This document shows, piece after piece, positions 1 to 25,132 of a stretch of DNA of 34,613 bases. Source of the DNA: Patulibacter minatonensis DSM 18081 (GTDB lineage Bacteria > Actinomycetota > Thermoleophilia > Solirubrobacterales > Solirubrobacteraceae); the NCBI RefSeq assembly GCF_000519325.1, contig NZ_KI912613.1, positions 551,123 through 585,735 of the forward strand, in the 5' to 3' direction. Numbering within the stretch: position 1 is the stretch's first letter; each line of letters starts with the position of its first letter. The notes beneath the pieces were generated by a model that was not told the DNA's origin, made no database searches, and saw only the letters and a program-made list of their open reading frames with translations. The translations under genes and the position numbers were made by a program.

Positions 1-560
1 CCGGGACCCCGCCGGCGCTCCGGCGCGTCGCCGCCGCCGTCCCGAGCGGTGCGCTGCGCTCGACGCTCCGCGCCCTGCCGCCCGCGCAGGACGAGCTGCG
101 CAGCGTCCTGCCGGACGCCGACCGGCTCCTGGCCGACGTCGGCGACGCCGCCCGCGACCTGCGGCCGACGACCGCGGCACTGCAGGCCGGCGTCCCGCCG
201 CTGGACGACGCGCTCGCCGGCACGCCGGGCATCCAGGCGTTCCGGCGCCTGGGCACCGCCGCCACCCCGGTGGTCGGCCGCGCGCGGCCCGTCGTGCAGG
301 ACGCCCGCGACCCCGCCGCGCTCCTGACGCCGATCGCCGACTCCCTCGGGCCGCTGACCTCGTACCTCGCGCCGTACCACCACGACATCGTCGAGGCCGT
401 CACCGGCTTCGATCGCTGGGGGAACTTCGCGTTCGACGACGGGCTCGCCAAGGGCGCGCGCGCCGTCCGCTTCTCGATGGTGCTGACCTGCCACAAGAAC
501 CGCGACCCGTACCCGAAGCCGGACGAGGCCTCGAAGCAGCGGAAGGCGTGCCAGAAGTGA
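1..560 (+). CDS. MCE-family lipid-transfer protein, C-terminal part (5' end outside window)
   Basis: Reading frame 3 is open from the left edge to the TGA at 558-560 and gives about 185 residues. The visible part is the long alanine/leucine/arginine-rich helical tail seen after the MlaD/MCE domain in actinobacterial MCE proteins. The MCE domain and N-terminal membrane anchor lie upstream of the window. The end carries two cysteines (in LTCHKN and KACQK) that could form a disulfide outside the membrane. The next MCE gene starts inside this stop codon (GTGA overlap), so the genes are translationally coupled. In this family several MCE subunits form a tube that carries lipids or sterols across the cell envelope, driven by YrbE permeases and an Mkl-type ATPase, neither of which is in this window. 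The family call rests on tail character and on the three complete MCE genes that follow. Confidence 0.85.
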   Translation, partial: GTPPALRRVAAAVPSGALRSTLRALPPAQDELRSVLPDADRLLADVGDAARDLRPTTAALQAGVPPLDDALAGTPGIQAFRRLGTAATPVVGRARPVVQDARDPAALLTPIADSLGPLTSYLAPYHHDIVEAVTGFDRWGNFAFDDGLAKGARAVRFSMVLTCHKNRDPYPKPDEASKQRKACQK

Positions 561-1879
561 GCCGGGTCGACGACCGCGGGAGCCGCTGGGCCTCCCGCCC
601 CGCCATGCCGATGGGCCTGCGCGGCGCGCTGTCGGTGCTCGTCGTCGTGCTCGTCGTGCTGATCGCGTGGAAGCGGCCGAACCCGTTCGCCGACCCGCAG
701 ACGGTCCGCGTGCAGCTCCGCGACGCGAGCGGCCTGAAGCAGGGCAGCGAGGTCCGCGTCTCCGGGACCGACGCCGGCGAGGTCACGGGCGTGGAGCGCC
801 GGGACGGCGTCGTCGTCGCGACCCTCGAGCTGCACGACGACGTCGGGGAGGTCCGCCGCGACGCGTCCGCCGCCGTGTGGCCGCGGCTGATCTTCGAGGG
901 CAACGCCTACGTCGAGCTGCGCACGGGCTCCGCCGACCAGCCGGCGCTCGGCGACGCCCCGATCGCCCTGGACCGGACGTCGTCGTACGTGCCGCTGGAC
1001 CGCGTGCTGCGCATCGCCGACGCCCCGACCCGCGGCAGCGTCCGGCGGATCGCGAAGGGCCTCGACGGCGCGTCGGACCGCACCACCACCGGGGCGGTCA
1101 ACCGCACGCTGCGGGCCGCACCCGAGCTCCTCGGCGACGTGGCGACGACGTCGCGCGCCGTCGGCGGCGACCGTCTCCGGCGCGCCGTCGCGGGGATGGC
1201 GAGGACCGGCGACGCGATCGCCGACCACGACGCCGACCTCGTGCCCGTGCTGCGGGACGCCTCGAAGACCGCCGAATCCCTGCACGCGGACGGCGGCGCG
1301 CCGCTCCGGCAGACGGTCCGGGACCTGCCCGGGACGCTCGCCGCGCTCCGGGTCGGCAGCGCCCGCGCTGATCGCACCCTCGCGTCGATCGACCGCTTCA
1401 CCACCGACCTGCGTCCCGGGCTGCGGGACGTCGCGCCGACCGTCGCCGTGGCCCGCCCCGTCGTCCGCCGCGCCGGCACCGTCGCGCAGGCCGCCGTGCC
1501 GCTGACCGCGAGCCTCCGGACCGCGCTCTCGCGTGCGGCGCAGCTCTCGCCGGAGGCCCGCGCGCTGATCGGCGAGGCGCTCCCGACCGTCGACACCCTG
1601 GACGCGTCGCTCCTGCCGGCGCTGAACAAGCCGACCCCGACGCTGAAGCTGCCGTCCTACGTCGCGTTCCTCAACATGTTCGCCGGCGGCGGCGGCGCGT
1701 CGCGCGCGTTCCAGACGCCGTCGGACAACCCGATGCAGCAGGGCGACGGGCACTTCATGCGCTTCGGCATCCGCTTCCTGACCGGCATCGGGATCCCCGT
1801 CCCGCCGTGCCAGGACGTGCAGGCGCTCGGTCCGGCGCTCGCCCCGCTCCTCGAGAAGCTGGAGCTCTGCACCCCGTGA
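557..1879 (+). CDS. MCE-family protein (MlaD domain), 440 aa
   Basis: This is a subunit of an MCE lipid-import tube. A single membrane anchor lies at about residues 18-37 (GALSVLVVVLVVLIAW). The MlaD/MCE beta-barrel domain follows at about 45-130, with the typical RDASGLKQGSEVRVSG segment and the closing stretch YVELRTG. A helical tail of about 300 residues comes next and ends in a Gly/Pro/Cys-rich tip (two cysteines near the end). I chose the GTG at 557 because it overlaps the previous stop (GTGA) and has GGAAGG about 10 nt upstream; the GTG at 548 would sit almost on top of that Shine-Dalgarno sequence. The following MCE gene overlaps this stop in the same way. The lipid cargo cannot be read from the sequence. 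Confidence 0.92.
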   Translation: MSRVDDRGSRWASRPAMPMGLRGALSVLVVVLVVLIAWKRPNPFADPQTVRVQLRDASGLKQGSEVRVSGTDAGEVTGVERRDGVVVATLELHDDVGEVRRDASAAVWPRLIFEGNAYVELRTGSADQPALGDAPIALDRTSSYVPLDRVLRIADAPTRGSVRRIAKGLDGASDRTTTGAVNRTLRAAPELLGDVATTSRAVGGDRLRRAVAGMARTGDAIADHDADLVPVLRDASKTAESLHADGGAPLRQTVRDLPGTLAALRVGSARADRTLASIDRFTTDLRPGLRDVAPTVAVARPVVRRAGTVAQAAVPLTASLRTALSRAAQLSPEARALIGEALPTVDTLDASLLPALNKPTPTLKLPSYVAFLNMFAGGGGASRAFQTPSDNPMQQGDGHFMRFGIRFLTGIGIPVPPCQDVQALGPALAPLLEKLELCTP

Positions 1880-3285
1880 GCCGCTCCCCCCGCACCGCCG
1901 GTGGCGTGCTACCGCCTCTCGGCCGGTCGCTCCTCGTCGGCCTCGTCGTCGTCGGGATCGCGCTCGTCGGTGTCGTCCTCAAGGTGAACGAGACCGGCCC
2001 GTTCGCGCCGTCCTCCTACGCCGTCGAGGCGACGTTCCGGGACGCCGGCGGCGTCAAGGAGAGCGATCACGCGCTCGTGACGATCGCCGGGGTCGACGCC
2101 GGCCACGTCGGCTCGATCACGCACCGGGACGGCCGGGCGATCCTGCAGCTGAAGCTCGACGACGACACCCGCGGCAAGATCCGGACCGGCGCGACCGCCA
2201 CGGTCCGCCCGCGCTCGCAGCTCGGCGACCTCGTCGTGGAGCTGACGCCGGGGCCCCGCAGCGGCCGGCCGCTGAAGGACGGCGACCGCCTCGGGACGAA
2301 CGCGACCTCCGCCTCGGTGCCGTTCAGCCGCGTGGCGTCGACGTTCGACACCGACACCCGCACGTGGCTGCAGATGCTGATCGGTGAGCTCGACGCGGGC
2401 GTCGGCGGCGACCGCCGCGGCCGCGAGCTGCAGCGGGCGATGCGCAGCCTCGAGCCCCTCGCGGCCTCCGCCTCGTCGGTCACGGGCAAGCTCGCCGACC
2501 GGCGCACCACCCTGACGCGCCTGGTCCGGGACCTCGACGTCCTCTCCACCGCGACCGGCCGGCGAGGCACCGAGCTGCGCAAGGCGATCGTCGCGGCACG
2601 GCAGGTGCTCTCGGTGACCGGCGACGACCGCGAGGCCGTCGCGGCGAGCGTCCGCGCCCTGCCGTCGACGCTCGCCGCCACGCGCGGCGCCCTGAGCTCC
2701 GTCACCACGCTGGGCGACCACCTCGACCCGGCCCTGACCGCGCTGACGCCGCTGACCCGCGAGCTCCCCGGAACGCTGCGCACCGCGCGGGAGACGCTGC
2801 CGAAGGCCGACGAGCTCCTCGCCGAGGCCGGCACCACCGCCCGCACCTCGACGGCGCCCGCAAAGGCCCTCGCAGACACCACGCGGGCGGCGCAGACCGC
2901 GATCCCCGCCCTGCGCTCCCCGCTGCGCCGCGGCGGCTCGTTCGTCCGGTCGGTGAACGAGAACAAGGACGGCATCGGCCTCCTCGGCGAGCGCTTCAGC
3001 GGCATCTTCTCGACCGCCGACACGAACGGCACGCTGCTGCGCGGCCTCGGCTTCTTCGAGCCGTTCAACCCGAAGAACTTCGGCTTCGGCGGGTCGCCGT
3101 CCGACCGGGTGAAGGCCGCGGCGGTCGTCGTGAAGGCGACCGTCGAGGCGTGCAGGACGAACGCGTTCGCGTGCCTCCTGCCGTTCACCGTGCCCGGCCT
3201 CCAGGACGCCACGAAGGCGCTCCTGAAGAGCCGCGAGGAGACGTCCGCCGCCGCACCGTCCGCGACCGGGGGGACCGGCCGATGA
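1876..3285 (+). CDS. MCE-family protein (MlaD domain), 469 aa
   Basis: Third MCE subunit in the row. The N-terminal anchor is at about residues 15-36 (SLLVGLVVVGIALVGVVLKV). The MCE domain is at about 45-130, with the pattern FRDAGGVKESDHALVTIAGV and a closing VVELTPGPRSG. The rest is a long amphipathic helical tail typical of the needle-forming part of these tubes, then a Phe/Gly-rich segment near 395-415 and a stretch with two cysteines close to the C-terminus (TVEACRTNAFACLL). The start is the GTG inside the preceding TGA (1876-1879). In-frame starts further upstream would overlap the previous gene by about 70 bp. Its own stop overlaps the next ATG, so the operon is read as one coupled unit. 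Confidence 0.92.
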   Translation: MSRSPRTAGGVLPPLGRSLLVGLVVVGIALVGVVLKVNETGPFAPSSYAVEATFRDAGGVKESDHALVTIAGVDAGHVGSITHRDGRAILQLKLDDDTRGKIRTGATATVRPRSQLGDLVVELTPGPRSGRPLKDGDRLGTNATSASVPFSRVASTFDTDTRTWLQMLIGELDAGVGGDRRGRELQRAMRSLEPLAASASSVTGKLADRRTTLTRLVRDLDVLSTATGRRGTELRKAIVAARQVLSVTGDDREAVAASVRALPSTLAATRGALSSVTTLGDHLDPALTALTPLTRELPGTLRTARETLPKADELLAEAGTTARTSTAPAKALADTTRAAQTAIPALRSPLRRGGSFVRSVNENKDGIGLLGERFSGIFSTADTNGTLLRGLGFFEPFNPKNFGFGGSPSDRVKAAAVVVKATVEACRTNAFACLLPFTVPGLQDATKALLKSREETSAAAPSATGGTGR

Positions 3286-4577
3286 ACCGCCACGTGCCCA
3301 AGGGCGGCGCCGTCCTCCTGGCGATGTTCCTCGCCGTCGGCGTCCTCCTGTTCCTCTTCTTCTCCGCCCGCTTCGGCGGCCCGGCGATCGAGACGAAGAC
3401 GCGCTTCCGGCTCTCCGCCGTCGTCACCGACACCCAGGGCCTCACGAAGCGCTCCGACGTGCGCCTGAACGGCGTGCTGGTCGGCCACGTCGACCAGGTG
3501 CAGCGCCGCGGCGGCCAGGCGTCCCTGACGCTCGTCCTCGACGGCGAGCCGGTGACGCTCCGCAAGGGGACCGCGCTGCGCGTCGGGACGAAGACCGCGC
3601 TCGGCGAGGCGTACGTCGACCTGACGCCCGGTCCGGCGCGCGCGGAGCAGCTCGCGTCCGGCACCACGCTGCGGGCGTCCGCGGTCCGCCCGGCGGTCGA
3701 GGTCGACGAGGCGCTCCAGGCGCTCGACGCCCCCACCCGCCGACGGCTGCAGCGGACCCTCGGCACGATCGGCGAGGCGACGAGCTCCCCGCGCGTGAAG
3801 GAGCAGATCGGCGGCGCGATCGAGGGGCTGCGCGGCAGTGTCGACGGGATCCACGACCTCGCGACGCTCCTGCAGGACCAGGGCGGCGACATCAGCCGGA
3901 TCGTGACCTCCGGCGGCCGGGTCGTCGGCGAGCTCGCCGCGCGCGACGGTCGCGTGCAGGCGCTCGTACAGAACGGCCGACGCACGCTGGACGCCGTGGG
4001 CGCCCGGGACGCCGCGCTCCGCGCCACCCTGCAGGAGGCACCGCGGCTCCTGGCGAGCGCGCGGGCGACGCTGCGGTCCGGCCGACCGCTGCTCTCCGAG
4101 GCCCGGCCGGTCGTCCAGGACCTCCGCGCCGCGACCCCCGACCTGACCGCCGCCACGCGCGAGATCCCTTCCACCGCGAAGGACGTCGACGCGATCCTCG
4201 ACCGCGGCCGGAAGCTGGAGCGGGCGGCGACGCCGGTCCTGGAGGCCGCCCCGGACCTCCTGGACGCCGCCGGCCCCGCCGCACGCCGGGCGTCCCCGGC
4301 GCTCGCGAACGTCGCGACCATCACCCGCTGGCTGGCCCCGCGCAAGCGCACGTTCGCGTCGTGGTTCTCGAACACCGCCGCGATCGGCACCAACGGCGAC
4401 GAGAAGGGCCGCTGGGCGCGCTTCTTCATCTTCATCGACCCTGCGACCCTGCTGGGCCAGAAGGCGTCGCTCCCCGAGAACGCCTACACCCCGCCCGAGG
4501 ACGCCCTCGCCCCCAAGCCGTTCAAGCAGGGCGACTTCGAGCGCCTGCAGCCGACGCCGGCGCCGCCGTCGCCGTAG
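3282..4577 (+). CDS. MCE-family protein (MlaD domain), last gene of the mce operon, 431 aa
   Basis: The start is the ATG of an ATGA overlap with the previous stop. A strong N-terminal membrane segment lies at residues 9-28 (AVLLAMFLAVGVLLFLFFSA). The MCE domain follows at about 38-120 (TDTQGLTKRSDVRLNG, closing in EAYVDLTPGP). The helical tail carries an aromatic segment near 380-395 (FASWFSNTAAIGTNGDE, WARFFIFIDP) and ends in a proline-rich tip. In complete actinobacterial operons six MCE proteins follow two YrbE permeases, so the four seen here are probably the distal members. That placement is an inference, because the upstream part is outside the window. Confidence 0.92.
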   Translation: MNRHVPKGGAVLLAMFLAVGVLLFLFFSARFGGPAIETKTRFRLSAVVTDTQGLTKRSDVRLNGVLVGHVDQVQRRGGQASLTLVLDGEPVTLRKGTALRVGTKTALGEAYVDLTPGPARAEQLASGTTLRASAVRPAVEVDEALQALDAPTRRRLQRTLGTIGEATSSPRVKEQIGGAIEGLRGSVDGIHDLATLLQDQGGDISRIVTSGGRVVGELAARDGRVQALVQNGRRTLDAVGARDAALRATLQEAPRLLASARATLRSGRPLLSEARPVVQDLRAATPDLTAATREIPSTAKDVDAILDRGRKLERAATPVLEAAPDLLDAAGPAARRASPALANVATITRWLAPRKRTFASWFSNTAAIGTNGDEKGRWARFFIFIDPATLLGQKASLPENAYTPPEDALAPKPFKQGDFERLQPTPAPPSP

Positions 4578-4616: not shown

Positions 4617-4650
4617 GCCGGGCCGCCTGTGCGACCCTGGCCGACGCACC

Positions 4651-5085
4651 GTGCCGCTGCTCCGCCGCAGGACCGTGCCCTCCGGCACGCCCCTCCCCGA
4701 CCGTCCCGCGTTCACCGCCGGGATGGCGACCGACCCCGACGGTCGCCCGTTCCAGGTCCGACGGAACGTCGCGCTGGAGCGCTACGCCGGGCACCCGGAC
4801 TACCCGCACCGCGTGGGCGCGACCGTGCTCGGGACCGGGATGCGCTCGAACGAGCTGCTGCGCCTGGAGGACGCGCTCGTCTCCGCGTGCTCGCCGGGGC
4901 GCGACACGGTCCTGGCGCTCGTCCTGACCGCCACGGGCTACCACGAGTTCGTCTTCTACAGCCGGGCCCCGACGGTCGCCCTGCTGCGGCTCCGCGAGAT
5001 CGGCGACGCGGTCCCCGAGGCCGACCTGCAGGTCTACGCCGAGCGCGACCCGCGCTGGGCGATCTACCGCGACCTCGTGCGCTGA
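4651..5085 (+). CDS. small hypothetical protein, DUF695-like, 144 aa
   Basis: A soluble protein without a signal peptide or membrane segment. The middle and end contain ELLRLEDAL, LALVLTATGYHEFVFYSR and ERDPRWAIYRDL. These resemble the DUF695 type of small protein, with a beta strand of aliphatics followed by an aromatic 'EFVFY' strand and a C-terminal 'DPxWxxYRD' signature. No biochemical role is known to me for this family. The GTG at 4651 is the longest start; an in-frame ATG at 4723 (MATDPDG) is an alternative and neither has a clear ribosome site. It follows the mce operon by 73 bp, is convergent with the collagen-like gene and shares a terminator with it. The coding call is firm and the family call is moderate. 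Confidence 0.7.
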   Translation: MPLLRRRTVPSGTPLPDRPAFTAGMATDPDGRPFQVRRNVALERYAGHPDYPHRVGATVLGTGMRSNELLRLEDALVSACSPGRDTVLALVLTATGYHEFVFYSRAPTVALLRLREIGDAVPEADLQVYAERDPRWAIYRDLVR

Positions 5086-5088
5086 GCG

Positions 5089-5110
5089 GCGGGCGGCGAA
5101 CGCCGCCCGC
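5089..5110. terminator. bidirectional terminator hairpin
   Basis: A perfect inverted repeat, GCGGGCGGCG / CGCCGCCCGC around AA (effective 9-bp stem, 4-nt loop), lies between two convergent stops (5085 on + and 5121 on -). It can serve both genes. There is no T-run, as is common at this GC content. Confidence 0.65.
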
Positions 5111-5120
5111 TCCGCCGCGC

Positions 5121-5993
5121 CTACGGCTGCTTGGAGAGCCAGGTCGCCGCGAACGACGTGCCCGGGCCGACCGCGATCTGGGGGTTGTCCGCCGTCTTCA
5201 CGTACGTCGACAGCGCGATCGCGTTGTCGTTGGCCGCGATCTCCGCCGACGTCAGGCAGACGGTGGTGCTGACGCGGAAGATCGGCGTGCCGCCGACGGT
5301 CGCGTCCGGGGTCTCCGTCGTCTTCGCGACCGCCTGGCCGTCGACCGTCAGCTGCAGGACCACCCGGCCCGTGAACGCGATCGACGTCTGGAAGCCCGCC
5401 GTCACGAGGTAGCAGCCGGGGACCGTGGGTTTGATGTCCGCCGAGTTGGTCGCGTGGATGCCGCCGGCATCGCTCTGCTCGTCGGTCCACGCGATGCCCG
5501 TGAGGCCCATGCCGTCGAGGAGCAGCCCGCCGTTGGAGGAGATCCCGAGCCGGACCTGCGGGACCGCCGCCCGCGAGGCCGGCGTCACGGCGTCCGCCGC
5601 GAGCGTCGGGTTCGGGTAGCTGCCCGCCAGCACGCCGCCGGCGGCGCCGGTCGCCGGTCCGGCGGGGCCGACGTCGCCCTTGGCACCCGTCGGACCTGCG
5701 GGCCCCGTCGCACCCGCCGCGCCCGTCGCCCCGGTCGCGCCCTTGGCACCCGCGGCGCCCTTCTGGCCCGTCAGCGCCTTGCGCGCCTTCTTCGAGATGT
5801 CGGCCGTCTGGATGGTGCCGTTCTTGATGTTCCTGCTCGTGATCTGCGACGCGGCGTAGGCGCTGCCCCCGCCGACGGCGAGCACGAGGGCGAGCGTCGA
5901 CGCGACGTTCGCGTAGCTCAGGGGGCGACGTCGTCGCGGGGGTGCCTGCCCGGTGGGCGTGGTCTCGGGGCTGCGGGGCGCTGGGTCGGTCAT
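5121..5993 (-). CDS. collagen-like surface protein with C1q-like C-terminal domain, 290 aa
   Basis: The order is a short basic cytoplasmic tail (RRRRPLSY), a membrane or signal segment (VASTLALVLAVGGGSAYA, about residues 28-48), a linker typical of actinobacterial collagen-like proteins (NGTIQTADISKKARKAL), about 12 Gly-X-Y triplets (from GQKGAAGAKG to GDVGPAG), a YPNPT motif, and a C-terminal beta-rich domain of about 140 residues resembling the C1q/BclA jelly roll. The collagen run should trimerise and the head could bind a surface or ligand. The start is the ATG at 5993 because GGAGG stands 7 nt before it; the longer frame to 6041 has no such site. It is secreted or anchored outside the membrane. 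The partner is unknown. Confidence 0.85.
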   Translation of the reverse strand: MTDPAPRSPETTPTGQAPPRRRRPLSYANVASTLALVLAVGGGSAYAASQITSRNIKNGTIQTADISKKARKALTGQKGAAGAKGATGATGAAGATGPAGPTGAKGDVGPAGPATGAAGGVLAGSYPNPTLAADAVTPASRAAVPQVRLGISSNGGLLLDGMGLTGIAWTDEQSDAGGIHATNSADIKPTVPGCYLVTAGFQTSIAFTGRVVLQLTVDGQAVAKTTETPDATVGGTPIFRVSTTVCLTSAEIAANDNAIALSTYVKTADNPQIAVGPGTSFAATWLSKQP

Positions 5994-6086
5994 GCGCGCA
6001 AGCCTCCGACGTGGCGCACCGCCGCGCATCGGGGGCGACACCCCGGAGTTCGCGGGCCGGGCACGACGCCCGACCCGGACCCGGGC

Positions 6087-6650
6087 TCAGCGCCGGGTCT
6101 CGTACCGGGTCAGCAGCACGCCGCCCGGGAACTCCAGGGTCTCCACCAGCTCCAGGTGCACCCAGCCGTCCAGGGCGGCGAAGAAGGGCTTCCCACCGCC
6201 CAGCAGGACCGGCGAGGTCGCCAGCACGTACTCGTCGATCAGCCCGGCCCGCATGGCCGACGCCGCGAGCGTGGTGCCGCAGATGTCCATGGGCCCGCCG
6301 TCCTGCGCCTTGAGCCGGGCGATCTCGGCGACCGCGTCGTCGGCGACGAGGCGGGCGTTCCCCTCGAGCGGGCCGAGCGTCGAGGAGAACACCACCTTGC
6401 GCATGTCCATCCAGCGCCGGGCGTACTCGAGCTCCGCGGGCGTGACGCCGGGCTGCTGGTCCGCGGTCGGCCAGTGCCCGCTCATCATCTCCCAGATCCG
6501 GCGCCCGTAGAGGGCGAGGTCCGTCGCCGCCACGCGGTCGGACCACCACTGGAACAGCTCGTCGCTCGGCATGCTCCAGCCGAGGTCGTCCCCGGGCGCG
6601 GCGATGTAGCCGTCCAGGGACACGTTCATCGCAAAGGTCAGTTTCCGCAC
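6087..6650 (-). CDS. RibD C-terminal/DHFR-fold reductase family protein, 187 aa
   Basis: A single-domain member of the 'bifunctional deaminase-reductase' (RibD_C) family. Seen are the N-terminal strand and loop MNVSLDGYIAAPGDDLGW, YGRRIWEMM in the nucleotide-binding region, and the C-terminal ICGTTLAASAMRAGLIDEY and SPVLLGGGKPFF. The family binds NADPH in a dihydrofolate-reductase-like fold. Stand-alone members like this one are common in actinobacteria and mostly of unknown substrate, so riboflavin or folate synthesis should not be assumed. The start is a GTG at 6650 with GGAAGG 8 nt upstream. It lies 93 bp upstream of the collagen-like gene on the same strand. It is divergent from apbE across 195 bp that hold no other gene. 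Confidence 0.88.
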   Translation of the reverse strand: MRKLTFAMNVSLDGYIAAPGDDLGWSMPSDELFQWWSDRVAATDLALYGRRIWEMMSGHWPTADQQPGVTPAELEYARRWMDMRKVVFSSTLGPLEGNARLVADDAVAEIARLKAQDGGPMDICGTTLAASAMRAGLIDEYVLATSPVLLGGGKPFFAALDGWVHLELVETLEFPGGVLLTRYETRR

Positions 6651-6845
6651 AGCGTCGGCCTTCCGGGGTTCGGTGGTTCGGCGTACAGACCATCAGGACG
6701 CAGGACACTCATCGGTCTTCCCGGACCCGACGTCGCCGACGGCGGGCCGGACGTCCGCGCAGGCCCGGCCGGGATCCCGGGGACGCGCCGTCGACGCCAC
6801 GCCCCGACCGCGTGCGACGCCGGAGTCCCGACCCCGGGAGGATCC

Positions 6846-7748
6846 GTGGTCACCGTGCCCTCGTCCCCGTCCCATCTCGCCTTCGACGCCATCGGCACCG
6901 CGTGGCGGATCGACGCCGTGGTCCCGCTCGACGAGGTCGCCCCGGAGGTCCACGCGCTGATCGACCGCTACGACCGGACGTGGTCGCGGTTCCGGGACGA
7001 CTCCCTCGTCGCCGAGATCGGCCGGCGCCGCGGACGGTGGAGGCTGCCCGCCGAGGCGGGCGCGCTCCTCGGGCTCTACCGCCGGCTGCACGACCTCACC
7101 GACGGCGCGGTGTCCCCGCTGGTGGGCGCGGCGCTCGAGCACCACGGCTACGACGCCGGGTATTCCCTGCGCCCGTCCGACGGGCCGGTCGTCGTCCCCG
7201 CCTGGGACTCCGTGATGCGCCCGGAACGCGGGCTGCTCGTCGTCGACCGACCGGTCGTCCTCGACGTCGGCGCGCTGGGAAAGGGACAGCTCGTCGACCT
7301 CGTGTCGGACCTCCTGGTCGCCCGCGGCGTCGACGAGCACGTCGTCGACGCCGGGGGCGACCTGCGGATCCGCCGGGCGGACCGCGCGGACGCCGCGCCC
7401 GAGGACCCGGGCATGCGGGTCGCCCTCGAGCACCCGGACGACCCGGCACAGGCCATCGGGGTCGTCACGCTGACCGGGGGCGCGATCGCCGCGTCGGCCG
7501 TCAACCGCAGGGCCTGGGGCGCGGACCGCCACCACGTCCTCGACGCGCGGACCGGCGAGCCGACCCGCGACGTCGTCGCCACCTGGGCGATCGCCCCGAC
7601 CGCGATGGAGGCCGACGGCCTCGCCACCGCCCTCTTCTTCCTGACGCCGAGCGCGATCCAGGCGCACTTCCCGTTCCGGGGCGTCCGGCTCCTGGCCGAC
7701 GGCCGGGCGCAGGCCACACCCGACCTCGTCGGTGCCCTCTTCACCTGA
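6846..7748 (+). CDS. apbE: FAD:protein FMN transferase (ApbE family), 300 aa
   Basis: Enzymes of this family move FMN from FAD onto a Thr/Ser of a target flavoprotein outside the membrane, with Mg2+. Seen are the N-terminal FDAIGTAWRI, the central VLDVGALGKGQLVD (the usual D-x-GG-x-AKG region, here GALGKG), VDAGGDLRI, the loop AASAVNRRAWG followed by HHVLDARTGEP, and the C-terminal APTAMEADGLATALF with the metal-binding Asp of the family. The usual SGxYxR loop is altered to SAVNRR, which actinobacterial members often show. No signal peptide or lipobox is visible. The GTG at 6846 has GGGAGG 4 nt upstream; GTG at 6855 is possible but further from it. No FMN-bind or ferric-reductase partner is nearby, so the target is unknown. 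Confidence 0.88.
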   Translation: MVTVPSSPSHLAFDAIGTAWRIDAVVPLDEVAPEVHALIDRYDRTWSRFRDDSLVAEIGRRRGRWRLPAEAGALLGLYRRLHDLTDGAVSPLVGAALEHHGYDAGYSLRPSDGPVVVPAWDSVMRPERGLLVVDRPVVLDVGALGKGQLVDLVSDLLVARGVDEHVVDAGGDLRIRRADRADAAPEDPGMRVALEHPDDPAQAIGVVTLTGGAIAASAVNRRAWGADRHHVLDARTGEPTRDVVATWAIAPTAMEADGLATALFFLTPSAIQAHFPFRGVRLLADGRAQATPDLVGALFT

Positions 7749-16196: not shown

Positions 16197-18428
16197 ATGC
16201 GTGGGGTTGCAACAGGGATCGCCGTCGTCTCCGCGGGGGCCGCGCTCGCCGCGCTGGCACCGTCCGCCGGGGCCGCCCCCGTGGAGACGATCTGGCCGGG
16301 CTGGCAGTCGGTCGGGCCGGCACCGGGCATCGACTCGGGCTCCACGATCGCGACGTCGGGGACCACGATCTTCGCGATGCGGAGCGCCGCGGACTCGTAC
16401 AGCAACTCCGGTCAGCGCCACCCGTTCGTGGTCGACGCCGCCGGGGTCCAGCGCGTCGGGACGCTCACCTTCGGCCGTACGGGCCAGCCGGCGATCGCCG
16501 CGCCATCGCAGACCCGGCTGGTCGCCCAGAACGGCTGCGAGGTCCAGCGGTCCGACGACACCGGCGCGACCTGGGGCACGGTCGCGCTCCCGGACTGCAA
16601 GGAGCTCTCCGCCGGGACGCTCGCGTTCTCCGACGCGAACAACGGCTTCGCGGCGGCGGGCGGGCGTCTGTGGTCGACGGCCGACGGCGGCGTCACCTGG
16701 AAGCCGACGGGCACGGTGCCGCAGTCGAACAGCTACGTGACGCGCCCGCTGGTGGCCGTCAACGCGACGACGCTGCTGCAGACGCCCGACGGGACGTCGC
16801 TCCGGCGCTCCGAGGACGGCGGCGCCACCTGGAAGGTCGTCGCGCTCCCGGCGCAGGGCGGCATGCTCCAGACGGCGCTCCCGTCGGTCGGCGCGGTCGT
16901 CCGGCGCGCGAACGGCGCGATCCTCGTCGGCGTGCGGGGCGCCGTCCTGCGCTCGACGGACCTCGGGAAGACCTTCACGCGCACCGACGCCCCGACCCCG
17001 CCGGAGCTCGCGGGCGCGAAGGACCTCGACGTCCCGATGATCGCCTGCGACGCCGCGAACGCCTGCGTCGCCGACATCGACGACCCCGGCGTCAGCACCC
17101 GCCACCAGGGACTGCGGTACACCGACGCCGGGTTCGGCGCCCCCGTCGCGGGGCTGCCGCGCCAGGCGAGCGCCCCCGCGACCAACACGATCGTCGGGCT
17201 GCAGGACCTGCCGACGACCACCGCACTGGTGCGCTCGACCAACGGCGGCGGCACGTACGGCCCGGTGATCACCGGCAACACGTCGCTCGGCAGCATCGGC
17301 GGCGACGGTCTGCTGTCCGTGATCCGCGGCGACCGCGTGAGCATGTCGACGGACCGCGGCGAGGTCTTCACCGACGCACCGCTCCCCGGGCCGTCCCCGA
17401 TCGTCGAGGACGTCACGGCGCCCGGCGGCACGATCGCGCTGACGGAGGACGGCAAGGTGTCGCGCCTCGTCGGCGGCGCGTGGCAGACGGTCGCCGACGC
17501 CACGCCGATCAAGCCGAAGGCGATCGCCGTCGCCGGGGACGTGCCCGTGGTCGTCGGGACCCGCGGCGTCGCGGTGATCAACAAGCCGCCCGCGGTCACC
17601 CTGACCTCCGCACCGGCGCTCGCGGGTCGCGGCTTCTCCGGCGCGACCGCCCGCGGGAAGACGATCCTCATCTGGTCCGGGACGCGGCTCGTCCGCTCCG
17701 GTGACGGCGGGAAGCGCTGGAAGGCGCAGACGCTGCCCGGGCGCATCACCGACGTGACGATCGTCGACAAGCGGTTCGCCTTCGCGCTCTCCGGGCACCG
17801 CCTCCTGACGTCGAGGAACGCGGGCGCGACGTTCAAGGGCGTCGGGTACCCGGTGCCGCTCGGCGACGGCAACGGGATCGACACCGCGGCGTTCCGCGAT
17901 GCGAAGAACGGCGTGAGCACCGGGGACGCCGGCCTGCAGATCACGACCGACGGCGGCCGCAGCTTCCGGCCCGTCCCGACCCCCGGCGGCACCGAGCCCG
18001 TGTTCGCGGACTCGACCGGCGGCGTGGTCGTCCAGGACCGCCTGAGCGGCGACCTCTACCGCTTCCTCGCCGCGTCGAAGGCGGCGAGCGCGAAGATCTC
18101 GCTGAAGCTCAGCGGTCGCGCGGCGCCGAGGAAGGCGCGGACGACCGGGAAGGGCAAGAAGAAGCGGACCGTCGCCTCGACGGTCCGGGTCGTCGGGAAG
18201 ATCACGGGCATCCCGCTGGACGGCACCGTCCACCTCGTCACCCAGGGCACGAAGTCGGGCGATCAGGCGCCGGCCGGGAGCGCCGAGGTCAACGCCGACG
18301 GCACCTTCACGCGGAAGGTCCGGCTGGGTGCGGGCGACCGACTGGTGCGCGCCTGGTACCAGGGCGCGGTGCTGCCGTCGGGCACGATCGGCGGCTCCGC
18401 GAGCACGGCGGTGAAGGTCCGGAAGTGA
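16197..18428 (+). CDS. secreted BNR/YCF48-like beta-propeller protein with C-terminal Ig-like domain, 743 aa
   Basis: The signal peptide (GIAVVSAGAALAALAPSAGA) is followed by about 560 residues with repeated Asp-box/BNR motifs of the type S-x-D-x-G-x-T-W: RSDDTGATWG, STADGGVTWK, RSEDGGATWK, RSTDLGKTFT, RSGDGGKRWK, TSRNAGATFK, TTDGGRSFR. This is the sortilin/sialidase/YCF48-type propeller pattern. A basic linker (GKGKKKRT) then joins a C-terminal beta-sandwich domain (about 640-743) with VRVVGKITGIPLDGTV. No sialidase active-site arginines or FRIP motif stand out, so a binding or scaffold role is more likely than an enzyme; that is an inference. The ATG at 16197 has GGAGGA 7 nt upstream. A strong hairpin follows the stop. 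Confidence 0.83.
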   Translation: MRGVATGIAVVSAGAALAALAPSAGAAPVETIWPGWQSVGPAPGIDSGSTIATSGTTIFAMRSAADSYSNSGQRHPFVVDAAGVQRVGTLTFGRTGQPAIAAPSQTRLVAQNGCEVQRSDDTGATWGTVALPDCKELSAGTLAFSDANNGFAAAGGRLWSTADGGVTWKPTGTVPQSNSYVTRPLVAVNATTLLQTPDGTSLRRSEDGGATWKVVALPAQGGMLQTALPSVGAVVRRANGAILVGVRGAVLRSTDLGKTFTRTDAPTPPELAGAKDLDVPMIACDAANACVADIDDPGVSTRHQGLRYTDAGFGAPVAGLPRQASAPATNTIVGLQDLPTTTALVRSTNGGGTYGPVITGNTSLGSIGGDGLLSVIRGDRVSMSTDRGEVFTDAPLPGPSPIVEDVTAPGGTIALTEDGKVSRLVGGAWQTVADATPIKPKAIAVAGDVPVVVGTRGVAVINKPPAVTLTSAPALAGRGFSGATARGKTILIWSGTRLVRSGDGGKRWKAQTLPGRITDVTIVDKRFAFALSGHRLLTSRNAGATFKGVGYPVPLGDGNGIDTAAFRDAKNGVSTGDAGLQITTDGGRSFRPVPTPGGTEPVFADSTGGVVVQDRLSGDLYRFLAASKAASAKISLKLSGRAAPRKARTTGKGKKKRTVASTVRVVGKITGIPLDGTVHLVTQGTKSGDQAPAGSAEVNADGTFTRKVRLGAGDRLVRAWYQGAVLPSGTIGGSASTAVKVRK

Positions 18429-18440
18429 GGTCCTGAAACC

Positions 18441-18472
18441 CCCCGTCGCGCCGTGAAACCGGCGCGACGGGG
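18441..18472 (+). terminator. strong hairpin after the propeller gene
   Basis: CCCCGTCGCGCC and GGCGCGACGGGG form a perfect 12-bp stem with an 8-nt loop, 12 bp after the stop. The loop holds one copy of the GTGAAACC repeat that is also part of the putative SARP operator of the downstream exporter, so terminator and operator overlap. Confidence 0.65.
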
Positions 18473-18484
18473 CCGTGAAACCGG
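18450..18484 (+). promoter_or_regulatory. SARP-like direct-repeat operator before drrA
   Basis: An identical 13-mer GCCGTGAAACCGG occurs at 18450-18462 and 18472-18484, exactly 22 bp apart (two helical turns). A third core TGAAACC lies at 18434-18440. The last copy ends 7-8 bp before a -10 box. Heptamer repeats at 11- or 22-bp period, about 8 bp before the -10, are the known layout of SARP activator sites. The 1055-aa regulator downstream has the matching DNA-binding domain. Confidence 0.55.
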
Positions 18485-18491
18485 GCGCTCC

Positions 18492-18497
18492 TAGCTT
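18492..18497 (+). promoter_or_regulatory. -10 box TAGCTT of the drrAB exporter operon
   Basis: TAGCTT lies about 45 bp before the drrA ATG with no recognisable -35. The direct repeats occupy the -35 zone, as at SARP-activated promoters. The leader ends in AAGGAG, 6 nt before the start codon. Confidence 0.5.
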
Positions 18498-18541
18498 GCG
18501 GTCCAGGCCGATTCCCCTTCCCCGGCCGCAAGGAGCACCCG

Positions 18542-19543
18542 ATGACCAACGCAGTCCACGCCACGGGCCTCGTCAAGGCCTTCGGCGACTTCCGCGCCGT
18601 CGACGGCATCGACCTGACGGTCCCCGCCGGCCAGATCTTCGGCGTCCTCGGGCCGAACGGCGCCGGCAAGACGACGATGCTGAAGATGCTGGCCACGCTC
18701 TTGCCGATCGACGGCGGCGAGGCCCACCTCTTCGGCGTCGACGTCCGCCGCGAGCCGCACCGGATCCGCCAGCTCGTCGGCGTCACCGGCCAGTACGCCT
18801 CCGTCGACGAGAACCTCACCGCCACCGAGAACCTGCGGATGTTCGGCCGGCTGCAGGGCCTGTCGCGCGCCGACTCGCGGGCGACGGCCGCCGACCTCCT
18901 GGGCCGCTTCGGCCTGGAGGAGGCCGCCGACCGGGCGATCTCGCAGTTCTCCGGCGGCATGCGCCGACGCCTCGACCTCGCCGCCAGCCTGATCAAGCGC
19001 CCGCCGCTGATCTTCCTCGACGAGCCGACCACCGGCCTGGACCCGCGCACCCGCGGGCAGATGTGGGACACGATCCGCGACCTCGTCGCCGACGGCTGCA
19101 CCGTCCTCCTGACCACCCAGTACCTCGACGAGGCCGACCAGCTGGCCGACCGGATCGCGGTCATCGACCGCGGGAGCAAGGTCGCGGAGGGCACCCCTGA
19201 GGACCTGAAGTCCTCGGTCGGCGCCTCGACGCTCCAGCTCCGGCTCGCCGACGGCACCGACCGCGTCCACGCGGCCGAGGTCGTCGAGCGGATCCTCGGC
19301 GTCGCCCCGGCGCTGACCCCCGAGTCCGGGCGCCTCTCCGCGCCCCTGGCCGACGCCGACCGCGCCGCCGACGTCCTGATCGCCCTCCGGCAGGTCGGGC
19401 TCGGCGTGCAGTCGGTCAGCGTCGACCGCCCCACGCTGGACGAGGTCTTCCTCGCCCTGACCGGCCACGACGCCGGTGACCAGAACGACCCCGCCGGTCC
19501 GGCCGGCGACGACCGTCACGACCCCCTGGAGGTGGCCGCATGA
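18542..19543 (+). CDS. DrrA-type ABC transporter ATP-binding protein, 333 aa
   Basis: The nucleotide-binding subunit of a two-gene exporter of the daunorubicin-resistance (DrrAB) family. Seen are Walker A GPNGAGKTT (about residues 38-46), Q-loop VTGQYASVDENLT, signature FSGGMRRRLDLA, Walker B LIFLDEPTTGLDP and switch region TTQYLDEADQLAD, where Gln stands at the usual H-loop His, a normal trait of DrrA proteins. After about residue 225 comes the DrrA-type C-terminal domain, ending in SVDRPTLDEVFLALTGHDA. ATG with AAGGAG 6 nt upstream. It overlaps the permease gene by 4 bp (ATGA). Such pumps export hydrophobic drugs or cell-wall lipids; the substrate is not readable here. Regulation by the neighbouring SARP-type protein is suggested by the upstream repeats. 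Confidence 0.93.
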   Translation: MTNAVHATGLVKAFGDFRAVDGIDLTVPAGQIFGVLGPNGAGKTTMLKMLATLLPIDGGEAHLFGVDVRREPHRIRQLVGVTGQYASVDENLTATENLRMFGRLQGLSRADSRATAADLLGRFGLEEAADRAISQFSGGMRRRLDLAASLIKRPPLIFLDEPTTGLDPRTRGQMWDTIRDLVADGCTVLLTTQYLDEADQLADRIAVIDRGSKVAEGTPEDLKSSVGASTLQLRLADGTDRVHAAEVVERILGVAPALTPESGRLSAPLADADRAADVLIALRQVGLGVQSVSVDRPTLDEVFLALTGHDAGDQNDPAGPAGDDRHDPLEVAA

Positions 19544-20403
19544 GCACCGCCCTGATCGACCGTCCCGCCCCGCGCGCGGACGCCCCGACCCACCCGACCG
19601 TCGACCCCGACGCCGCGGTCGCCTCGACCCGGCCCCGCAACACCCTGCGCGACGCCGCGTCGCACACGATGACGATGGCCTGGCGCGCCACGATGAAGAT
19701 GCGCCGCAACCCGGAGCAGTTCTTCGACGTCCTGATCCAGCCGATCCTGTTCACGGTGATGTTCGCCTACGTCTTCGGCGGCGCGATCTCCGGCGACGTG
19801 CAGAGCTACCTGCCGATCATGATCCCGGGCATCCTCGCCCAGACCGTGCTGACGACCTGCATGGCCACCGGCGTGCAGCTGCGCGAGGACATGGACAAGG
19901 GCGTCTTCGACCGCTTCCGGTCGCTGCCGATCGCCCGGATCGCGCCGCTGGCCGGCCCGATGGTCGCCGACCTCCTGCGGTACACGACGGCCGCCGTGCT
20001 GACGTTCGGGATGGGCATCGTCATCGGCTACCGCCCCGACGGCGGGGTCCTCGGCGTCCTCGGCGCGATCCTGCTGGCCGTCTTCACCGGCTGGTCGCTG
20101 GCCTGGGTCTTCACCTGGATCGGCACGATCGCCCGCAGCGCGCAGGCCGTGCAGGGCATGTCGATGATGCTGCTGTTCCCGCTGACGTTCCTGTCCAACG
20201 CGTTCGTCCCGGTGAAGACCCTGCCGGGCTGGCTGCAGGACTTCGTGAACGTCAACCCGGTGTCGCACCTCGTCTCGGCCGCCCGCGACCTGGCCAACCA
20301 CGGCACGGTGTCCGGCGAGGTCGGCTGGACCCTCCTCGCCGCGGTCGTCGTGATCGCGATCTTCGCCCCGCTCTCGGTCCGCAGCTACATGCGGCGGGTG
20401 TGA
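19540..20403 (+). CDS. DrrB-type ABC-2 transporter permease, 287 aa
   Basis: The membrane partner of the preceding ATPase. A basic, proline-rich cytoplasmic N-terminus (about 40 residues) contains MKMRRNPEQFFDVLIQP, the start of the ABC-2 membrane domain. About six hydrophobic segments follow (for example ILFTVMFAYVFGGAI and the last, TLLAAVVVIAIFAPLSV). The ABC-2 signature region between segments holds DKGVFDRFRSLPIAR, LTFLSNAFVPVKTLPGWLQ and NVNPVSHLVSAARDL, all typical for DrrB. The start is the ATG in the ATGA overlap. The stop (20401-20403) is 4 bp from the stop of the convergent regulator gene. Confidence 0.92.
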   Translation: MSTALIDRPAPRADAPTHPTVDPDAAVASTRPRNTLRDAASHTMTMAWRATMKMRRNPEQFFDVLIQPILFTVMFAYVFGGAISGDVQSYLPIMIPGILAQTVLTTCMATGVQLREDMDKGVFDRFRSLPIARIAPLAGPMVADLLRYTTAAVLTFGMGIVIGYRPDGGVLGVLGAILLAVFTGWSLAWVFTWIGTIARSAQAVQGMSMMLLFPLTFLSNAFVPVKTLPGWLQDFVNVNPVSHLVSAARDLANHGTVSGEVGWTLLAAVVVIAIFAPLSVRSYMRRV

Positions 20404-20410
20404 GCGCTCA
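20401..20410. other. palindrome holding both convergent stop codons
   Basis: TGAGCGCTCA is a perfect 10-bp palindrome in which each strand supplies its own TGA stop (drrB on +, the SARP-type regulator on -). No separate terminator is seen in the 4-bp gap. Confidence 0.6.
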
Positions 20411-23400
20411 GCCGTCCGGCGACCCCGCCAGCGCCGCCGCGGCGAGCCGCTGGAGCGGCTTCCCGGTGACGTCGCCGAGCTCCGCCCGGAGCTCGGCGAT
20501 CCGGCCCGGAGCCCGCTCCTCGGCGCGCGCCGCCACCGGCTCCCACGCCATCGACGGGATCCAGCGGTTGTAGGAGAACCGCTCGGCGAGGACGAGCAGG
20601 CGGACCGCCTCGTCGACCCCGTCGTCCTCGCGCAGCAGGGTCCACGCCGCGACGGCGAACAGCCCGAGCCCGGTCACCGGGTGGTCGAGGTACGGGTTCC
20701 CGCTCGCCAGCACCCGGACGACCCGGTCCCGGGCGCTCCGGGCCAGCGCGCGCGCCTCGTCCTCGGCCTCCGGACCGGCGTGCCGGGCGAACGCGGCCAG
20801 CGCGGCGGACTCCGCGTAGAGCAGCCACGGCTCCATCCCGGTCCGGGGCATCCCGGGGAACGACACGTCCGCCATCGCCGCGACCGCCGCCCGGTAGCCC
20901 TGGATGCCGGCGTCCTTCTCGCCGCGGGCCAGGAGCAGCTCCGCGTGCCCCATCTCCCGGGCCGCGCGGCCACCGAAGACCGTCTCGATCGGCCCCATCC
21001 GGTCGATCGCGGCGAGCTCGGCCTCCGCCTCGTCCAGCCGGCCCGCACCGACCAGCCCGAGCGCGAGCAGCGCCCGCAGCTGGCTCAGGTCGTCGCGGGC
21101 ACCGAGGCGCTCGAGCACCGGGACCGCGGCCCGCGCGTGCACCGCCGCGCCCTCGTGGTCGCCGAGCGAGCCGATCAGCTGCGCCAGCTGGGTCCGCAGG
21201 GTCGCCGCCGCCCAGGGACCGTCCTCGTCGGGGCGGGTCAGCGCCAGCGCGCCCTCCGCCGCCGCGATCGCCCCGGTGACGTCGCCGTCGTTCTCCCGTG
21301 CGTGGGAGCTCCACTGCCGCGCGATCCGCGCGAGGTGCCGGTCCGGGTCGTCGGCCAGCGCCCCCAGGGCCGCGGGGAGCGCGCGGGGCAGCTCGGGGTC
21401 GTAGACGAGGGCCGCGCGGGCCGACGCCGCGACCTGCGCGTCGCCGCCCGGGGCGTCCGCGACGCGCTCGAGCAGCGCGCGCAGCTCGGGCGTCCGCTCG
21501 TCGGCGGCGATCATCGCGTTGGTCACGATGATCGACGCCGCGGCGCGCGCGGCGTCGACGAGCTCCGGGGGCGGCGTCCACCCCGCGACGAGCGCGCTGA
21601 GCGGCGGCGCCAGGACGATCACGCGGCCGTGGTCGCCGCGGATGGACCACAGCCCGGCGAGCGCCGCCACGAGGACGACGGCGGCCTCGACGTCGCCGTC
21701 GTCGAGCGCCCCGCGCAGCGCGTCGGTGAGGTTCCCGTCCTCGGCCGCCATCGCGTCGATCGCGTCGAACTGCCCGGGGCCGAAGAGCCGCGGCCCGTGG
21801 GTCGCGGCGTGGCCGACGGCCCACGCGCGATGGGCAGCGCGGGCGGCCCCGTCCTCCCCGGCCTCCCGCAGCCGGAGGCGTCCGAACTCGCGGACCGTCT
21901 CGAGCATGCGGTGCCGCACGCCGGCGTCGGTCTCCTCGACCGCGAGCAGCGACTGCGCGGCGAGGTCCTGCACCACGGGCAGGGCGTCGGCGCCCAGGAC
22001 CTCGTCGGCGGCGTCGAGCGAGAACCCGTCGTGGAAGACCGAGAGCCGGCGGAGCGCCGCGCGGCCCGGCTCGTCGAGCAGGTCCCACGACCAGTCGATC
22101 ACGGCCTCGAGCGTCCGGTGCCGGTCCGGGGCGGTGCGGTCGCCGCCGCGCAGCAGCGCGAAGCGGTCGGCGAGCCGGCGGCCGACGTCCTCCACCGACA
22201 TCGCCCGGACCCGCGCGGCCGCCAGCTCGATCGCCAGCGGCAGGCCGTCGAGCCGGTCGACCACGGCGCCGACCGCGTCGTCCGGCAGCCGCACGCCGGG
22301 GCGCGCGGCCGTCGCGCGCTCGCGGAACAGCCGCCGTGCGTCGTCCGGGCCGAGCGCGCCGAGCAGATGGACGCGCTCGGCCGCGATCGCGAGGGGCGCC
22401 CGCGTCGTCGTCAGCACGCGCAGGTCGGCCGTCGCGGAGACGAGGAACGCGACGAGCGCCGCGACCGCGTCGATCACGTGCTCGCAGTTGTCGAGGACGA
22501 GCAGCGACGGCGCGCGGTCCAGGTGCTCCGCGATCCGCGCACGGACGTCGGCGCGCTGCTCGGGCGTCAGCGCGCGCCGCCCGGCCACGGAGTCCCGGAC
22601 GCCGAGCGCCGACCCGACCTCGCCGACGACGTCGTCGGACGACGTGACGCCGACGAGCTCGACGACGTGGACGACCGCCTGTGGTGCGTCGCGGGCGAGC
22701 ACGTGCACCAGACGCGTCTTCCCGAGCCCGCCGGGCCCGACGATCGACACCAGGCGCGACGTCGAGAGCAGCGCGCGCAGCCGCCGGACGTCGTCGTCGC
22801 GTCCGAGGAGGGTCGTCGCGTCGTGCCGGAGTCCGGCGCGCACCGGGCGGTCGAGCGCCAGCAGGTCCCGGTGGACCCGCCGGAGCGCGTCGCCGGGGTT
22901 CGCCCCCAGGCGGTCGCGGAGTCCGCAGCGGTGCGCCTCGTAGCGCTCCAGCGCCGCTCCCGGTCCGCGCACGACCGACTCGCTGCGCAGGAGGTCCGCG
23001 AGCAGGCCCTCGTCGTCGGGCGCGGCGGCGTGCGCGGCCTCGAGCCCGGGCAGGGCGCCGGCGTGGTCGCCCGTCCGGCCCGACGCGCGGGCCAGGACGA
23101 CGCGGGAGCGGGCGACGTCGGCGGCCGCGGCGCGGACGAGCTCCGCGAGCGGCCCGGCGTCCGCGTGGTCGTCGTCCCGCGGCTCCGCGACGTCGCCGCC
23201 GAGCACCACGGCCTGCCGTGCGAGGTCGGCCGCGACGGCGGGGTCGTCGTCGAGGGCACGGGCGGCGTCGGCGGCCAGGCGCCGCAGCCGGAGGACGTCG
23301 ACGGCGCCGGGGTCGATGGCCAGGCGGTAGCCCGCGTCGTCGTGGGCGACGGCACCGGACCCGCAGGCGGACCGCGTGCGCGAGACGACGACCTGCAGCG

Positions 23401-23575
23401 CCTTGGCGGCGTTGGCGGGCGGGTCCTCGCCCCAGATCAGCGCCGTGAGGCGGTCCGGGCGGACGCTGCGGCCGTCGGCGGCGGCCAGCGCGGCGAGCAG
23501 CGACCGCGAACGGTCGCCGGCGACGGGGACGCCGTCCCAGCGGACGCCGTCGAGGAGGGTGAGCTCCGGGGGCAC
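20408..23575 (-). CDS. SARP/AfsR-type transcriptional regulator: OmpR-like DNA-binding, BTAD, NB-ARC ATPase, TPR, 1055 aa
   Basis: A large STAND-type regulator. Residues about 15-90 form the OmpR-like winged helix of SARPs (RSLLAALAAADGRSV, LTALIWGEDPPANAAKALQV, VVSRTRSACG, DAGYRLAIDPGAVD). The bacterial transcriptional activation domain spans about 95-240, followed by the P-loop ATPase (Walker A GPGGLGKTR near 280, Walker B LLVLDNCEH near 357, sensor TTRAPLAI, and GLPLAIELAAARVRAMS). The C-terminal half is helical TPR-like repeats (AEGALALTRPDEDGPWAAAT, AELAAIDRMG) that usually sense a signal or partner. It likely activates transcription when ATP- and ligand-bound. GTG at 23575 has no Shine-Dalgarno sequence; a CAGACT box lies 6 nt upstream. 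Convergent with drrAB, whose promoter has SARP-like repeats. Confidence 0.9.
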   Translation of the reverse strand: MPPELTLLDGVRWDGVPVAGDRSRSLLAALAAADGRSVRPDRLTALIWGEDPPANAAKALQVVVSRTRSACGSGAVAHDDAGYRLAIDPGAVDVLRLRRLAADAARALDDDPAVAADLARQAVVLGGDVAEPRDDDHADAGPLAELVRAAAADVARSRVVLARASGRTGDHAGALPGLEAAHAAAPDDEGLLADLLRSESVVRGPGAALERYEAHRCGLRDRLGANPGDALRRVHRDLLALDRPVRAGLRHDATTLLGRDDDVRRLRALLSTSRLVSIVGPGGLGKTRLVHVLARDAPQAVVHVVELVGVTSSDDVVGEVGSALGVRDSVAGRRALTPEQRADVRARIAEHLDRAPSLLVLDNCEHVIDAVAALVAFLVSATADLRVLTTTRAPLAIAAERVHLLGALGPDDARRLFRERATAARPGVRLPDDAVGAVVDRLDGLPLAIELAAARVRAMSVEDVGRRLADRFALLRGGDRTAPDRHRTLEAVIDWSWDLLDEPGRAALRRLSVFHDGFSLDAADEVLGADALPVVQDLAAQSLLAVEETDAGVRHRMLETVREFGRLRLREAGEDGAARAAHRAWAVGHAATHGPRLFGPGQFDAIDAMAAEDGNLTDALRGALDDGDVEAAVVLVAALAGLWSIRGDHGRVIVLAPPLSALVAGWTPPPELVDAARAAASIIVTNAMIAADERTPELRALLERVADAPGGDAQVAASARAALVYDPELPRALPAALGALADDPDRHLARIARQWSSHARENDGDVTGAIAAAEGALALTRPDEDGPWAAATLRTQLAQLIGSLGDHEGAAVHARAAVPVLERLGARDDLSQLRALLALGLVGAGRLDEAEAELAAIDRMGPIETVFGGRAAREMGHAELLLARGEKDAGIQGYRAAVAAMADVSFPGMPRTGMEPWLLYAESAALAAFARHAGPEAEDEARALARSARDRVVRVLASGNPYLDHPVTGLGLFAVAAWTLLREDDGVDEAVRLLVLAERFSYNRWIPSMAWEPVAARAEERAPGRIAELRAELGDVTGKPLQRLAAAALAGSPDG

Positions 23576-23641: not shown

Positions 23642-25132
<1,491 letters not shown>

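Follow-up and report, generated by a model that had tools for sequence, protein, structure and literature searches.

It is highly likely that positions 18453-18497 of the window (the whole stretch of Patulibacter minatonensis DNA analyzed here, 34,613 nucleotides) form a SARP-dependent promoter, and that the AfsR-type regulator encoded convergently to the exporter operon drrAB binds the repeats of this promoter and switches the operon on. Read from the sequence, the repeats in front of the exporter are very probably the docking site of this neighboring AfsR-like sensor-activator, and regulator and operator both carry those features of known SARP systems for which they were tested.

Anatomy of the probable promoter and gene content of the window

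The features that bear on this reading, in window coordinates, are:

18434-18440 (+): upstream TGAAACC core, a possible accessory site, 20 bp before unit 1 and at -42 from the proximal core
18441-18472 (+): perfect 13-bp hairpin (arms 18441-18453 and 18460-18472) with a TGAAAC loop, a possible terminator over units 1-2
18453-18463 (+): predicted SARP operator unit 1 (distal), GTGAAACCGGC, with its core at -22 in 23/25 loci of the operator class
18464-18474 (+): SARP operator unit 2, decayed, GCGACGGGGCC, its CGA invariant in four same-genus species
18475-18485 (+): SARP operator unit 3 (proximal), GTGAAACCGGG, predicted -35 substitute, with 7/7 core bases invariant in the genus
18492-18497 (+): -10 hexamer TAGCTT
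18530-18535 (+): ribosome-binding site AAGGAG for drrA, read from the sequence
18542-19543 (+): drrA, exporter ATPase, 333 aa (TIGR01188, 344.9 bits against a cut-off of 312.45)
19540-20403 (+): drrB, ABC-2 type exporter membrane subunit, 287 aa (PF01061, E 5e-31)
20408-23575 (-): AfsR-type STAND-SARP regulator, 1055 aa, with wHTH, BTAD, NB-ARC and a helical TPR-like C-terminal part
23363-23410 (-): predicted recognition helix of the regulator, residues 56-71, core KALQVVVSRTR; by alignment R66 is AfsR R92 and V62 is AfsR T88

A preliminary description of this DNA had reported identical 13-mers at a period of exactly 22 bp, a TAGCTT -10 box behind the last copy and no -35, and each of these points holds: GCCGTGAAACCGG occurs exactly at 18450-18462 and again at 18472-18484, TAGCTT lies 7 bp past the second copy, and a scan of the promoter region found no sigma-70-type -35/-10 pair. 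The GCCGTGAAACCGG pair by itself is weak evidence, as the whole window contains five exact 13-mer pairs, this one included, at spacings of 13-44 bp. Taken in 11-bp steps, however, the array consists of three units (18453-18485) followed by 6 bp and then TAGCTT, and it is because the middle unit has decayed that a 22-bp rather than an 11-bp period was first seen. By analogy with afsS, drrA transcription is predicted to start at about 18504. The third TGAAACC core of the preliminary description, 20 bp further up, is present at 18434 but off the 11-bp register and missing from three same-genus relatives; since a core exactly at -42 recurs in three other genera (L103, L108 and L123, thus four genera including that of the window), its sequence may mark an accessory site. 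The pattern TGAAAC-N16-TGAAAC, with zero or one mismatch, has one site only in the 5.52-Mb genome, and a regulon sharing the operator was rejected on that count.

One repeat had also been placed within the loop of a terminator. The hairpin with its TGAAAC loop is real (folding energy of 18425-18500, -38.4 kcal/mol, z -2.9), but no T-run stands behind 18441-18472, so that “terminator” is only a plausible label for it. Among the species compared, the hairpin is confined to that of the window; there alone, the putative activator site shares bases with what may be the transcription end of the BNR-repeat gene upstream.

That drrAB starts here, as first described, is borne out by drrA, which begins at 18542 behind AAGGAG, scores above the TIGR01188 cut-off and has a DrrB partner, as expected of a DrrAB exporter (predicted role, drug or lipid export). 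The drrB start overlaps the drrA end, and DrrB scores under the cut-offs of the named drrB models. The regulator gene is convergent to drrB, with 4 bp between their ends, and its product has the N-terminal OmpR-type winged helix followed by BTAD that marks SARP/AfsR-type proteins, as had been claimed for this 1055-aa gene, together with the NB-ARC/NOD and TPR-like C-terminal parts of the large AfsR-type form (PF03704, E 6e-10, above cut-off; PF00931, E 2e-8; PF00486 detected, under its cut-off). Its Walker A motif, GPGGLGKT, is intact. The protein matches AfsR and EmbR in sequence and predicted fold (phmmer to AfsR, 8hvr, E 1.3e-10; structure model with mean pLDDT 88.2), and in the model its C-terminal half is helical, with a STAND-TPR protein as the best fold match. 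It is AfsR-like and not AfsR, as it reaches 37.6 bits against the AfsR equivalog NF053617, whose cut-off is 1430.

A scan of the family loci found no 11-bp array before the regulator gene that would suggest autoregulation, though such a scan misses decayed arrays, that of the window included. The gene immediately upstream of the regulator, and on its strand, is purA (adenylosuccinate synthase; window 23645-24961, -), as it is in the relative L082. Elsewhere in the window, three successive MlaD/Mce-domain genes (548-4577, +) are followed by an ApbE-domain ORF (4629-7748, +). The genome holds two more STAND-SARP paralogues (G000:C1:643327-646266 and 2045945-2047321), ~39-40% identical over the matched part and with no drrAB adjoining.

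Conservation of the array in the genus and the wider family

The same convergent gene set occurs in three other species of the genus, where the orthologous drrA is 77-80% identical and the regulator, over its whole alignment, 63-78%. All three show (T/C)GAAACC, 15 bp, TGAAACC and, after a further 9 bp, an nAnnnT hexamer, while the sequence upstream of the promoter in the window is unrelated to theirs. Under gapless anchoring of the four species, 13 of the 14 core positions (units 1 and 3) are invariant, as against 4/60 upstream and 6/37 downstream. The preliminary description had proposed as a check that the repeats should be more conserved than their flanks in relatives that keep the gene pair, and the array passes it.

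Beyond the genus, a regulator-alignment scan in which each bacterial or archaeal species was represented by one genome yielded 589 confirmed relatives, of which the best 80, with the genus relatives and the window, make up the locus set. A convergent drrA lies within 3 kb of the STAND-SARP regulator in at least 58 loci, across actinobacteria. Among the matches listed, the best lag upstream of drrA (three-unit similarity) is 11 bp in 46 of 58 loci, with a mean score of 16.7 at lag 11 vs. about 11 at other lags; neither 26 control drrA homologues that were not selected for a regulator neighbor nor shuffled sequences gave an 11-bp peak. In 52 of the 55 loci listed, an nAnnnT hexamer starts exactly 17 bp past the first base of the proximal unit (other offsets, 0-3/55), and so it does in 25/26 loci of the largest class when taken without register shift (one locus extended by a unit). 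The family thus has the direct repeats at an 11-bp period that are expected of SARP operators, the middle unit being decayed in the window, and has them in the -35 place at a fixed distance from the -10. At the place of unit 2, TGAAACC (at most one mismatch) is present in 15/25 loci of the operator class to which the window belongs.

The arrays are not confined to the standard arrangement. In 26 related loci without it, we found, among the matches listed, eight arrays with a correctly spaced -10, vs. ~2 expected from the shuffled rate. For seven of the eight, the gene behind the promoter was identified; array and -10 stand in front of:

L145:12963 and L178:13342: FAD monooxygenase near tetracycline destructases
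L152:14389: FAD monooxygenase near rifampin monooxygenase
L173:13088: LfrA/QepA-like MFS pump
L180:9925: P450
L177: DUF4097 protein
L144: drrAB operon in another arrangement

These family names denote similarity only; no named resistance model passed its cut-off. The regulators at L145, L152, L173, L178 and L180 have no drrAB beside them. The sequence patterns suggest a broader design of one sensor per export or detoxification gene. Going further, we find it somewhat more probable than the converse that these AfsR-type STAND activators make up a large class, apparently undescribed so far, of dedicated local sensors, each turning on one adjoining export or drug-inactivation gene (for a DrrAB exporter, a P450, a multidrug MFS pump, or an FAD enzyme of the tetracycline-destructase-like or rifampin-monooxygenase-like type); the promoter design would be one and fixed, and a readable code would link recognition-helix residues 58-65 to the operator heptamer.

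Operator classes, the recognition helix and rival readings

Each regulator clade has its own repeat sequence (GTGAAACC, TGCAAG, TGTCAG, TGTCGG and CGTCAGCG), in agreement with the recognition helix and not with the exporter. Classes were set by helix residues and operators fitted per class without a preset sequence, which makes the correspondence between the two a finding, with the caveat that operator sequences were already known when the classes were drawn and that each class's frame was set on its TG/CG core:

Helix KxLQ[VI]: operator GTGAAACCG, 26 loci, window included
Helix NALHTQ: operator TGCAAG, 5 loci
Helix NALQ[ARS]L: operator TGTCAG, 12 loci
Helix GALQALVGR: operator TGTCGG, 6 loci
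Helix AALQTLVSR: operator nCGTCAGCG or GTGAGCG, 6 loci

Among the aligned regulators R66 is invariant, and positions 58, 61, 62, 63 and 65 vary by class. Operator distance correlates with that of the helix (0.66) and the regulator body (0.67), and less with that of DrrA (0.26); the corresponding partial correlations are 0.42, 0.41 and 0.07. Between two clades within the TGAAACC class, DrrA identity can fall to 43%, and DrrA pairs that are 73% identical can carry different operators. Taken together, the correlations and these identity contrasts indicate that the operator tracks the regulator, not the exporter. Mapped on the regulator tree, the operator classes require only four changes (five on that of DrrA), so the helix-operator correlation partly reflects shared descent; as each class has a single origin among the regulators, the code is weakened as a fully independent test.

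This tracking bears on who uses the repeats. A PhoP site overlaps the AfsR box upstream of afsS (PMC10972967), and one could imagine another winged-helix protein, e.g., a PhoP- or OmpR-type response regulator, as their main user in the window; we regard this as very unlikely, because it is the class of the adjoining regulator, not the exporter, that the repeat sequence follows, and because the genome holds this site only once. Still less credible, to the point of being negligible, is that the repeats are a side effect of the hairpin that may terminate the upstream gene, or arose by chance in a G+C-rich sequence: although a perfect 13-bp hairpin has one copy in its loop and the window holds four other exact 13-mer pairs with short spacing, three relatives whose upstream sequence differs and lacks this hairpin retain the repeats, and at least 55 loci share the architecture. 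As a full explanation, a chance or terminator origin is refuted by conservation amid unrelated flanks.

Of the sign of the effect, the opposite can be imagined, i.e., that the neighboring SARP binds the repeats but represses drrAB and is released upon ligand binding. A precedent is Atr32, an NB-ARC-bearing SARP clustered with two ABC transporter genes (Atr29/Atr30) and reported as a negative regulator of atratumycin production (PMC6835768), though it differs from the window protein in its 667 aa and in belonging to a biosynthetic cluster, and the passages on it describe no operator. Repression is nonetheless improbable, somewhat less so than use of the repeats by another protein, because the fixed spacing to an nAnnnT -10 without a -35 is the published activator geometry, and a repressor has no need for a fixed -10 phase.

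Proposed mechanism, known systems and significance

Activation by the neighboring regulator would proceed as follows. We infer that its wHTH-BTAD part occupies the 11-bp direct repeats where a -35 would otherwise lie, with one protomer on each unit, and that the bound SARP brings RNA polymerase to TAGCTT, a weak -10, turning drrAB on; as in the AfsR model, protomers side by side would keep sigma region 4 at the -35 position (PMC10936776). A third protomer is likely on the distal unit, given that this unit is the best kept (23/25 loci) and that PimR provides a known case of heptamer triplets. The NB-ARC and TPR-like parts would keep the SARP domain inactive until it is released by ATP and probably by a ligand, as the NOD and TPR parts of AfsR inhibit it until ATP binds (PMC10936776). 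The ligand may perhaps be the exported compound.

AfsR at the afs box of Streptomyces coelicolor (PMC10936776) has in common with the window system the SARP-NOD-TPR order, 11-bp direct repeats over the -35, an nAnnnT-type -10 and the same 17 bp from the proximal unit start to that -10. In the AfsR-afsS complex the downstream repeat spans -29 to -19 and the -10 is CACTGT (PMC10936776), so that the AfsR offset of 17 bp assumes CACTGT at -12 to -7 (standard numbering), and the register relative to AfsR is possibly off by one base, as the AfsR consensus CGTT(T/C)ATCGNN (PMC10972967) also fits CGTGAAACCGG. The afsS -10, CACTGT, is found exactly in locus L131 as well. Of the AfsR helix alpha-3 residues R92 and T88, which contact bases (PMC10936776), the arginine R92 corresponds to the invariant R66 of the window family. 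In contrast, AfsR is a global regulator acting on afsS, whereas the predicted target in the window is one adjacent exporter operon, and the unit sequence is GTGAAACCGnn in the window system vs. that consensus in AfsR. A point against the proposed arrangement is that the strongest units of the window stand 22 bp apart around a decayed middle, in an array of three whose distal member is the most conserved; AfsR, by contrast, binds two 11-bp units that adjoin each other. The SARP-LAL operators, that of PimR among them, offer a likeness here in their heptamer triplets with 4-bp spacers, where at least two heptamers are needed for binding and one monomer occupies each; PimR differs in acting inside an antibiotic cluster, in an operator without -35 overlap and in its C-terminal half (PMC5930380).

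DnrI is a small SARP without the STAND part. In Streptomyces peucetius it bound the drrAB resistance genes, as cited from Prija et al. (2017) in PMC10972967; DnrI, however, is a cluster activator, and no antibiotic cluster was recognized among the window genes examined. In the open-access literature searched, we did not find described a SARP helix-operator code, its class-wise match, a STAND-SARP/drrAB pair outside clusters, or the pairing of one sensor with one exporter.

So far, SARPs have been known chiefly for switching antibiotic clusters; in the loci described here, which are spread over many actinobacterial families, this machinery takes the form of a putative single-operon sensor for export or detoxification. 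As each regulator lies beside its own operator, the family provides more than 50 matched helix-operator pairs, which open the DNA-binding specificity of SARPs, and the inducers of AfsR-type STAND proteins, to direct tests.
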